Notes under the pieces: generated by a model
Told to the model about the DNA's origin: nothing
Database searches by the model: none
The model's input: only the letters and a program-made list of their open reading frames with translations
Part shown: in pieces, positions 46,342 through 50,103 of the stretch
Numbering within the stretch: position 1 is the first letter of the stretch
Layout of the letters: every line of letters begins with the position of its first letter
Source of the DNA: Planctomycetota bacterium
GTDB taxonomy: Bacteria; Planctomycetota; Planctomycetia; Gemmatales; Gemmataceae
Length of the DNA: 64,000 bases
Reading direction: 5' to 3'
Assembly (NCBI GenBank): GCA_016191165.1
Contig: JACPPF010000044.1
Location: forward strand, 1 to 64,000
Made by a program: the position numbers and the translations under genes

Positions 46342-46377
46342 TTGTTTTTAATTTCTGCCCTTGCACGATTGATTCCC

Positions 46378-49300
46378 ATGAGCACCCTCTACCTCGCCCC
46401 TGACCTGCCCACGCTGGCCGATCGGCTTGCCGATGAAATCGAGCATGCCGCCCACTCCGGCGATTGCTTCGTGCCCACCTCCATCGTCGTGGCGAACCGC
46501 TACGTCCGAAAATGGCTGCGCTTTCATCTCGCTCGCAAGCATGGCGTGGCCATCAATCTAAACTTTCTTTCCCTCGATGACGCACTCTGGCATTACTTGC
46601 AACAGACCGATCCCGCGGTGCCGACCACGCCGCCGGAGGCGATCGATGATAATACGTATCGGCTCATGGTCCTGTCGGTGCTTTTGGAAGAAAGCGACCC
46701 GCACCTGCAACCGTTGCGGCGCTACGTGCAAATGGATGACCAGGCGCTCAGTCGGTTGACGTGCCGGCGGGCCTGGTACCTGGCCGACCGACTCGGGCTG
46801 TTGGTTCGCGCTTACGAATACGATCGCCAGGACACATTGATTCAACCCTGGCTGCGCGGCGAGTTCGGCCTGAACAAGGCGAGCGAATTTCACACGATGA
46901 TGGAGCGTGCTCAGCGCGCCTTGTTCTTGCACATCACGCGCGAGCCGGACGGACGACGTGCGCTGCTTAACCGGCTGGGCGAGCGCACGTTCAAGACGTT
47001 GCCTCAGTACGCGATGGAGCTGATGACAGCGAACGAAACGCCCCCCTCACCCCCTGCCCCTCTCCCAGAGGGAGAGGGGAGACCGGGCCCGCTCCCAGGG
47101 GGAGAGGGGAGCAGGGTTCATTTCTTTGGTTTCACGCATCTGTGCGACCTGCACGCGCGCACCATCGGCTGGCTGGGGCGCGTCCTGGATGTGCGTCTCT
47201 ATTGCCCGAGCGTTCACGCGAGCCGGTTGGGCGCGGGGGCGAACAACGACAAACTGCCGGAGATTGCCCAGTCGCTCGTCAACGCGAGCGGCGAGTCGGC
47301 GGGCGAGCTCGCGCGTTTGTGGGGCAAGGCCGGCGCCGGGTCTCTGGCGCTCCTGGCGCCGTGTGCGTTTGACATCGACGTGTTGTCCGCGTCCACGTCA
47401 TCCCGGCGACGAGGCTCAAAATCCGCGCCAGCAACCGTCCTGGCGCGTTTGCAGAATCTTCTCCGCGGCGGGGCCGTTGGCAAGGCCCGGCTCGCGCAGG
47501 ACACCTCGGTGCAAATCGTCGGGTGCCCCGGTCTGATGCGCGAGGTCGAGACCGTTCACGACAGCATCGTCAACAATCTTCAGAACGATTCATCGCTTCG
47601 GCAAACCGACATCGTGGTGCTGACCACCGATATGCCCCGGTATCGAGCCGCGCTGCAATCGGTCTTCGAACGGCCGCCGCGCCGGCTTCAGTACAACCTC
47701 GTCGATTTCAACGCCGCCAGCGTGAGCACCTATGGCCAGGCCCTGCTGGGAATGTTCGACCTGGCGCTTGAATCTTTTTCCCGGTCGCGCGTCTTTCAGG
47801 TCATCTTGAATCCCTGCTTTCTGGCGAGAATGGGGGTTGAACGCCAACAGGCGACGGCCTGGCTGGAATGGGCGGAGAGTCTCGGTATTCATCAGGGTTG
47901 GGACGCCCAGGAAAAGCAACAGCAGGGCTATCCGAATTCGCCGCTCTACACGTGGCGGCACGGCTTGCAACGCTTGCGGCTCGGGCGCTTCATGGACGTG
48001 GCAAGCGAGAATGGCAGCGGGCCGACGGCGCGTTTTGGGCAGGTAATCCCGTTCGCCGACCTGGCCAGCACCGAGCGGGAACAGCTCGACGCGTTCTGTC
48101 GGGCGGTGGAAGGTTTGCTGCCAACGCTGACCCGATTGCGTTCGTCGTCTTTACCCGGAGCACGCTGGGCCAGCACGCTACACCGATTGGCTCAGGAATT
48201 TCTGGACGTGCCAGTGGATCGCCCCGAAGAAACGCAGGTTCGCGATCAACTCGTTGCGGGTTTCGAGACCCTGGCGGCCTGGGATTCGTTTCAGGAAAGC
48301 AAGCACCAATCGCCCGGCCTGCCGCTGGCGCTGGTGCGCGAATTTGTGCGCAGTCAACTTGAGGTCCTCGAAGGCAGCCGGGGAGACTATCTCATCGGCG
48401 GCGTCACGGTCGCGGCCCTTGAGCCCATGCGTGCCCTGCCGTTCGAGATCGTCTACCTGGTCGGGCTTGGCGAGAACACCTTCCCCGGCAGCAACGCCCT
48501 TTCGTCGTTCGACCTGCGCGACGCCGCTCGCCTGGCAGGCGACATTCGCCCGGCCGAGCAACGGCTTCATGATTTCCTGGCGACGATCCTGTCGGCACGG
48601 AAAAAGCTCTACCTCTTCTTCGACAACCATGACGTACAAAAGGACCAGGCCATACTCCCCTCGGTGCCGCTTCAGCAGTTGCAGCGCCATCTGGGCCAGT
48701 ACGTGGTCAACGCGGATTTTGAAGAAATCAAGGTGCCCAATCAAGTCGATGATGCTTGCTTGCTTGACCTGGCAAAGCAGCCTTCCCATCAGGATGTGCT
48801 GGTGCAAACCCGCGACGTGGATCGGCTGCTCGCCCTGGCGTCGGCCGAGCGCGAAAACCGTCTCGCGCTGGACAAGAAGCAGCGGGCGGAATGGGACACG
48901 AAAAGCCGGGCATTCCAGACCGATTTCTCGATCGCGCCACAACCCAGGGAGACGCAGGCCACCGGTCCCACGATTCCGCTGGTCTCGCTCAAGCGATTCC
49001 TGCAATTGCCCGCGCAGGAGGCGCTGCGCCGGCATCTTGGGATCGATGACGACGATGAAAAAGACATGGACGACGACGAGCCGCTCGTCGCGCCCGATTT
49101 TGACAGGCGTTCGCTGGTTCGCCAGACGATTCAGGGGTTGATCCTGTCCGCGGTGGCCAACGGAGTGGACCAGGCGCTGGCAGGTTGGCAGCAGGGTTTT
49201 GACGCGTTGTACGCCGACGCCAACCTGCGTTGCCGCGTGCCGGAGGCGGCGTTTGGCGACCTCGATCGCGCCGCCCTGCGCGCCGATTTGCAAGAACGCA

Positions 49301-50103
49301 TTCACGGGCAGGGGCGACTGGAATCGTTTCTGCGCGAACGGGCAGGCCTCACCTTCTGCGGCCCCGTGTTGCTGGGCGAGAGCCTGACGCCGATGGGCGC
49401 GCGGCTGCGATTCCCGGCGCTTGGCCTTCCGCGCGAAAACGACACGCCGATCCGCCTGGTCGGCTGGACGGAGTTCGCGTGGCATGACCCGGGCCGATTC
49501 GAGATCCTCGTCATTACCACGGCGAAGATTGACGACGGCCGAGAGATTCACACGACTTTGCTCGAGCCGGCACTGCTGCATCTGGCCTTTCTGGCGAACG
49601 CGGCGGCGAATGCGGAGGGTGTGTCGCCGCAGGCCTGGCTCGCCGACCGCGAGGTCGTGCTGCATGTCGCCCACACCGGCGGAATCGTGAGCTGGCAGTA
49701 TCCGCCGGGGAGCATCACTCCCGCGGAAGCGACGGCGCACCTCTTCGAATTGTCGCGCGACTTGCTCGACCCAGGCCAGTTCGATTTGCTGCCGCTTGAT
49801 GCGTTGACCCAGCAAACATTGCGGTTCGTCCTTCATGGCGATCAGCCGATGCGCCGCGATCCGGGAGAGTTCCGCGCAGCGTTGGAGGAAATGATCGCCG
49901 AGGAACTGGAGAAGGGTTCATTCGCCACCGTACGCATCCCTGGGCTCGTCCAGATGATCGGCGCCCGCGTGCCCGCCGATGCCCTGGCCAAGGTGGAACG
50001 CCGATTTCATCTGCTCGATCGCGGTCCGGCCCGGCAGCGGCGGCAGCCGGTCGTGATCAAGCCAAAGCGCGCGAAGGCGTCGGCCTCGAAGCGCATCGAT
50101 TAG
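46378..50103 (+). CDS. recC: exodeoxyribonuclease V gamma chain RecC
   Basis: A 1241-residue RecC-like subunit of the RecBCD helicase-nuclease, which scans for Chi-like sites and organises the complex. The start region L-Y-L-A-P-D-L-P-T-L-A, the helicase-like remnant with V-V-A-N-R-Y-V-R-K-W-L, and mid-protein V-Y-L-V-G-L-G-E-N-T-F-P-G-S are typical. Residues about 219-243 are a repeat-encoded Pro/Gly/Glu insert. Order recC-recB-recD on one strand supports the call. It begins 36 nt after the endonuclease stop and could be co-transcribed with the R-M genes. A 552-codon antisense frame over it is a shadow. Confidence 0.9.
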   Translation: MSTLYLAPDLPTLADRLADEIEHAAHSGDCFVPTSIVVANRYVRKWLRFHLARKHGVAINLNFLSLDDALWHYLQQTDPAVPTTPPEAIDDNTYRLMVLSVLLEESDPHLQPLRRYVQMDDQALSRLTCRRAWYLADRLGLLVRAYEYDRQDTLIQPWLRGEFGLNKASEFHTMMERAQRALFLHITREPDGRRALLNRLGERTFKTLPQYAMELMTANETPPSPPAPLPEGEGRPGPLPGGEGSRVHFFGFTHLCDLHARTIGWLGRVLDVRLYCPSVHASRLGAGANNDKLPEIAQSLVNASGESAGELARLWGKAGAGSLALLAPCAFDIDVLSASTSSRRRGSKSAPATVLARLQNLLRGGAVGKARLAQDTSVQIVGCPGLMREVETVHDSIVNNLQNDSSLRQTDIVVLTTDMPRYRAALQSVFERPPRRLQYNLVDFNAASVSTYGQALLGMFDLALESFSRSRVFQVILNPCFLARMGVERQQATAWLEWAESLGIHQGWDAQEKQQQGYPNSPLYTWRHGLQRLRLGRFMDVASENGSGPTARFGQVIPFADLASTEREQLDAFCRAVEGLLPTLTRLRSSSLPGARWASTLHRLAQEFLDVPVDRPEETQVRDQLVAGFETLAAWDSFQESKHQSPGLPLALVREFVRSQLEVLEGSRGDYLIGGVTVAALEPMRALPFEIVYLVGLGENTFPGSNALSSFDLRDAARLAGDIRPAEQRLHDFLATILSARKKLYLFFDNHDVQKDQAILPSVPLQQLQRHLGQYVVNADFEEIKVPNQVDDACLLDLAKQPSHQDVLVQTRDVDRLLALASAERENRLALDKKQRAEWDTKSRAFQTDFSIAPQPRETQATGPTIPLVSLKRFLQLPAQEALRRHLGIDDDDEKDMDDDEPLVAPDFDRRSLVRQTIQGLILSAVANGVDQALAGWQQGFDALYADANLRCRVPEAAFGDLDRAALRADLQERIHGQGRLESFLRERAGLTFCGPVLLGESLTPMGARLRFPALGLPRENDTPIRLVGWTEFAWHDPGRFEILVITTAKIDDGREIHTTLLEPALLHLAFLANAAANAEGVSPQAWLADREVVLHVAHTGGIVSWQYPPGSITPAEATAHLFELSRDLLDPGQFDLLPLDALTQQTLRFVLHGDQPMRRDPGEFRAALEEMIAEELEKGSFATVRIPGLVQMIGARVPADALAKVERRFHLLDRGPARQRRQPVVIKPKRAKASASKRID
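47040..47115. repeat. repeat insert in recC encoding P-P-S-P-P-A-P-L-P-E-G-E-G
   Basis: The DNA (CCCCCTCACCCCCTGCCCCT, then two near-copies of CTCCCAG.GGGAGAGGGGAG) is in frame and encodes P-P-S-P-P-A-P-L-P-E-G-E-G-R-P-G-P-L-P-G-G-E-G. The strand-complementary CTCCC/GGGAG halves can form small hairpins. The same word type is in the gene at 18632 and in the helicase at 59176. It interrupts an otherwise normal RecC stretch between A-M-E-L-M and V-H-F-F-G-F. Confidence 0.75.

Follow-up and report, generated by a model that had tools for sequence, protein, structure and literature searches.

A recC-like gene in the 64,000-nt stretch of Gemmataceae DNA analyzed here (contig JACPPF010000044.1; hereafter the window) contains an in-frame block of palindromic DNA, which is very probably one copy of a dispersed non-autonomous palindromic repeat whose hairpin was partly duplicated in tandem. 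At least 36 genes besides recC in the part of the genome examined hold the same repeat in frame, and ~11-25 extra amino acids are predicted in each protein. On balance, we favor the view that in one freshwater Gemmataceae genus a triplex palindrome that is intergenic elsewhere enters genes freely, has given new loops to dozens of proteins including essential enzymes, and is a continuing source of peptide insertions.

The palindromic block in recC

The recC locus comprises the following features.

46342..50103, + strand: recC-like gene (exonuclease V gamma chain), host of the insert; open reading frame (ORF) of 1253 aa
47041..47113, + strand: whole inserted block, in frame, read as PPSPPAPLPEGEGRPGPLPGGEGS in RecC
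47044..47079, + strand: complete 36-nt unit, consisting of the tag CCCTCACCCC, CTG and the hairpin CCCCTCTCCC-AGA-GGGAGAGGGG; exact match to the consensus
47058..47078, no strand: perfect palindrome CCCTCTCCC-AGA-GGGAGAGGG
47083..47111, + strand: second hairpin without tag; partial duplication of the first at 30-nt spacing, 86% identical

The 1253-aa ORF matches the Pfam family Exonuc_V_gamma (E 2e-25) and E. coli RecC (PDB 1w36 chain C, 1w36_C; E 2e-35). Its true start is likely ATG 46378 rather than TTG 46342, because the proteins of relatives begin at MSTLYLA and the TTG start is absent from them. The original prediction, made from the letters of the window, had described a low-complexity block with two repeated units in frame in recC, and the sequence is as described. 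The inverted-repeat character that it reported was also recovered, as the block consists of two directly repeated hairpin units spaced 30 nt from each other, together with their inverted repeats, and the window contains a single CCCTCTCCC-N-GGGAGAGGG core palindrome, compared with none in 100 dinucleotide shuffles. The insertion was placed at 47040-47115 and sized at ~25 added residues; it is indeed in frame, but the complete unit and the second hairpin together add ~22 aa.

The unit is dispersed through the genome. The recC block has 57 DNA matches within its own genome, and the exact palindrome CCCTCTCCC-N2-8-GGGAGAGGG is found 105 times in the 7.23-Mb draft assembly versus 0 for a reversed-pattern control. 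Aligned copies yield the consensus CCCTCACCCCC-NN-CCCCTCTCCC-NNN-GGGAGAGGGG-AG(AA), in which a C-rich tag (CCCTCACCCC), a hairpin and a short conserved tail (AGAA) follow one another. The core is 36 nt long in two thirds of the copies (range 35-42 nt) and reaches ~38-40 nt with the AG/AGAA tail. The units occur singly, as divergent doublets, or as tag-less tandem hairpins at 30-36 nt, the last being the form in recC. In most of the 18 divergent doublets found, 21-30 bp separate the tags, and this intervening sequence is locus-specific and unique at each locus. No Rfam family reached its gathering score. One copy (L105:14617) adjoins an apparent tRNA gene end (TAGCCAACTGAGCTATGCA).

Low-complexity expansion by slippage in place within recC would account for the second hairpin, which duplicates the first in tandem at 30 nt, and local duplication thus contributed to the block. 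The first unit, however, fits exactly the 36-nt consensus present at dozens of sites in this genome and in other phyla, which rules out slippage in place for this unit and leaves slippage as an origin of the block very improbable.

The recC genes of relatives were located in the genus and family. RecC of seven relatives, from within the genus and outside it, lacks the unit: between PQYAMEL and VHFFGF, the place of the block in this genome, the linkers of L020-L026, L033 and L037 are unrelated in sequence and variable in length. A profile of these relatives maps the insert site to approximately residues 202-209 of E. coli RecC, before the strand RVFICGI; therefore, the insert sits in a natural loop. 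The insertion would have hit the variable-length linker just before the β-strand that matches RVFICGI. This site being a natural linker, with Pro or Ser there in some relatives, the block could instead be a conserved Pro/Gly linker proper to RecC and endowed with a function. Yet length and sequence are free to vary among the relatives and the unit is in none of them; these sequences rule out a conserved functional linker, to which we give next to no credence. The RecC alignment proposed with the original prediction thus came out as a mobile insertion would have it, with close relatives lacking the block and the same DNA word dispersed elsewhere in the genome, often in frame within genes. In RecC, the insert is most probably neutral, being tolerated rather than useful.

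In-frame copies in other genes

The DNA surrounding known copies was fetched in pieces of at most 20 kb (~1.06 Mb in all), and the flanks of 83 element loci were scored by a codon model trained on the same genome. The repeat is inserted in frame in many genes: at 37 of the 83 loci both flanks are coding in one frame and the element is open. Random positions fall in this class in 48% of cases, indicating that genes are struck about as often as other places. Among single-hairpin loci with same-strand coding flanks, 29 of 31 keep the frame without a stop, whereas one third would be expected (p 3e-12). All five stop-free reading frames are used, and the sixth, which contains TGA, never is. We propose that the unit enters new sites as a short piece of DNA, in both orientations and in genes about as often as elsewhere. 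Selection in coding DNA would then purge frameshifting or stop-introducing copies, and those that keep the frame without a stop in tolerant loops would persist as extra peptides.

Host genes include those of PurH, GatA, TyrRS, ValRS, TrpA, homoserine dehydrogenase, SelA, PrmC, fructose-bisphosphatase and a thiamine pyrophosphate (TPP) enzyme, and 16 inserts fall between the limits of a Pfam domain match. Comparison with PDB structures places inserts of ~12-15 aa in PurH, GatA and TyrRS. The TPP enzyme gene (TPP_enzyme_C/M, acetolactate-synthase-like) carries four consecutive hairpins (L089:752-986), which correspond to ~70 extra residues in the TPP-binding region. The loops HLAGDLL..FNESI and HPELLDWLA.. 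of PSCyt2/PSD1 proteins bear inserts in several paralogues or species (L066:11997-12053; L090:8961-9020; L155:3299; L115:9114; L155:1446; L184:3129).

Repetitive extragenic palindromes (REPs) have been reported in recBCD, uvr and DNA polymerase genes with a proposed mutator role (PMC3733652), and the insert might likewise have been recruited to alter the activity of RecC or other repair proteins and been retained for that. Against this, the hosts here are of every kind, the in-gene frequency is that of random positions, and in-gene copies are as near the consensus as the others (0.62 versus 0.71 mismatches per 30 nt). Recruitment is therefore very improbable in our estimation.

Predicted proteins repeatedly contain a Pro/Gly/Glu-rich peptide (PSPSGRGAGGEG, SPPAPLPEGEG, LTPNPSPRGRGE), which the repeat explains and which runs the risk of being misread as a domain or a frameshift. 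The encoded peptides were not found in the literature searched.

Empty sites, distribution and proposed movement

Empty sites are seen in related genomes; within this genome, no paralogous empty sites were found at the DNA level. PurH has 11 additional residues here and none at this site in four congeners, while G001 PurH carries an insert of its own, also 11 residues long, at a different site. The GatA insert is common to this genome and G002, remnant-like in G001, and absent from G003, G005 and G006; this distribution suggests an apparently older insertion that is now decaying. An RND pump has 46 additional residues here versus 0 in five close homologues. In RND paralogues from G002 and G006, the identical loop holds single units that are read in other frames. 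Some loops are therefore struck repeatedly. Across three genomes, the RND-type loop DVENI.RRL received independent inserts that differ in frame and orientation (L096:18739-18902; L337; L342). Protein tolerance or DNA preference may be the cause of the repeated hits. As some loops were struck more than once in various frames and orientations, the element would act as a continuing source of in-frame peptides.

The in-gene habit is shared by three other species of the genus and not by two species outside it. In the congeners G001, G002 and G006, 23 of 51 sampled loci are in genes, versus 0 of 35 in G026 (same family) and G046 (another family). This contrast is strong with the present genome included (Fisher p 4e-8), but the sampled loci were picked by similarity to a two-hairpin query, and hence the sample is biased to clustered copies in G026 and G046. 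The exact 40-nt unit is present in at least eight phyla, but of 294 genomes sampled from this phylum only 6 contain the 36-nt form with at most one mismatch, whereas this genome has 73 copies. A Thiobacillus contig has an exact unit within, and in frame with, a 787-aa leucyl-tRNA synthetase-like ORF (L323:3439); judging from this case, the in-protein habit may extend beyond Planctomycetota.

Several points weigh against our interpretation. The in-gene call for most of the 37 loci rests on codon usage, and only five (RecC, PurH, GatA, TyrRS and RND) were checked against homologues. The nearest RecC is 63% identical, and for this reason the exact insert junctions in RecC are unreadable. Insertion itself has not been seen between strains of one species. 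As for a donor enzyme, none of the 11 Y1_Tnp genes in the genome is closely flanked by units.

We infer that the unit moves instead of spreading through gene conversion, and that it would do so as a single-stranded DNA hairpin, with a Y1/HUH transposase possibly acting on it in trans. Compatible with the dispersed-repeat explanation is the more specific proposal that a RAYT-type (Y1/HUH) transposase mobilises the unit, which would then mechanistically be a REP moved as a single-stranded hairpin. The units show no target-site duplication clearly above the shuffled expectation (85 units), their tag is unpaired beside the hairpin, and the divergent doublets have near-fixed spacing, all of which are in line with such an enzyme. 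Moreover, two of the 11 Y1_Tnp genes have element copies ~1 kb downstream (L048:1501-1788, 2835-2932; L047:1501-1716, 2615), and unit matches and Y1_Tnp counts show a weak positive correlation across 59 genomes (rho 0.38-0.44), which takes no account of relatedness or genome size. On the other hand, besides the lack of close flanking, nearly all Y1_Tnp genes examined have 0 units within 1.5 kb, G033 has 16 scored unit matches and no Y1_Tnp hit, and the tag CCCTCACCCC is neither GTAG nor CGTC. We thus advance a RAYT mobiliser tentatively, with somewhat more doubt than confidence. Replication-linked copying of the hairpin is another possible means of spread.

Comparison with known repeats

To our knowledge, few bacterial groups have small repeats inserted regularly in their proteins. 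The Gemmataceae case is distant from Rickettsia and strikes essential enzymes whose structures have been determined (PurH, GatA, TyrRS). Rickettsia palindromic elements (RPEs) inserted in proteins have been reviewed (PMC10969869). Both RPEs and the unit described here are palindromes read stop-free and in frame within dozens of proteins that are unrelated to one another and often essential, so that the defining behaviour of RPEs, in-frame insertion in many unrelated protein genes, is found here as well. However, RPEs are ~150 bp long and of other sequence, whereas the present unit is 36-40 nt (35-42 nt over all cores) and is read in five of the six frames; this comparison was made by length, and RPE sequences were not compared. 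The likeness to the Rickettsia elements suggested at the outset thus extends to behaviour and stops short of sequence.

Di Nocera et al., 2013 (PMC3733652) described, for several species, REPs inside recBCD, uvr and DNA polymerase genes. Those REPs share with our unit the form of 20-40 nt palindromes that are single, paired or clustered, some of them in coding regions including DNA-repair genes, but they are mainly intergenic and carry GTAG or CGTC tags. The REP superfamily is defined by either tetranucleotide at one palindrome end, which places our unit outside it. RAYT-associated REPs are recognized by a RAYT or Y1 transposase gene with repeats on both flanks, and miniature inverted-repeat transposable elements (MITEs) by a target-site duplication; the 85 units without a clear duplication do not qualify as MITEs. 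REPs within genes, recBCD genes included, were thus already on record in 2013.

Close to our unit in plan and letters is the PIT/TM_ECO intrastrand-triplex motif (Holder et al., 2015, PMC4666352), which is also credited to Hoyne et al. as cited in PMC4666352. The G-rich strand of our unit reads CCCCTCTCCC-TCT-GGGAGAGGGG-CAG-GGGGTGAGGG. Intrastrand-triplex-forming (ITxF) motifs, among them PIT/TM, generally have three consecutive stem blocks of 6-15 nt, loops of 1-6 nt and a third strand forming class II triads, and the window unit, with 10-nt stems, 3-nt loops and 0 mismatches, belongs to this general class. Its mismatch-free stems would therefore allow 10 of 10 purine-motif triads, and 104 other units have a mean of 9.37 of 10 triads in the antiparallel versus 5.68 in the parallel arrangement. 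The strict TM_ECO pattern, CCCTCNCCCN3-6GGGNGAGGGN3GGGNGAGGG, has exactly 3 nt between 9-nt G blocks. The window unit departs from it because its 9-nt blocks are 5 nt apart, equal to 3 nt between 10-nt blocks, and is thus a 10-nt-stem variant rather than a strict TM_ECO.

The repeat involved is therefore of the widespread PIT/TM kind, whose mobility and function have been in question ever since its description. The repeat's mover, as well as the loops of conserved enzymes that accept a foreign peptide of ~12 residues, now become testable. The original prediction knew of no such description for this lineage; this appears to hold for the repeat in the literature searched, but the repeat itself was known as PIT/TM_ECO and from Enterobacter sp. 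638, in which ~100 CCCTCTCCC-N2-3-GGGAGAGGG repeats were interpreted as terminators (PMC2869309).

Like the unit described here, the PIT/TM_ECO and Enterobacter 638 repeats consist of a C-rich arm, a loop, a G-rich arm, a 3-nt loop and the third strand GGGGTGAGGG, in near-identical letters, and they too occur as many dispersed copies and inverted pairs with a patchy distribution. Unlike TM_ECO with its 9-nt stems, our unit has 10-nt stems in register, and unlike the known PIT/TM_ECO it is found in Planctomycetota. TM_ECO is regarded as always intergenic, as are all 23 copies in E. coli K-12 (PMC4666352), whereas about half of the copies here (37 of the 83 loci) lie in frame within genes.
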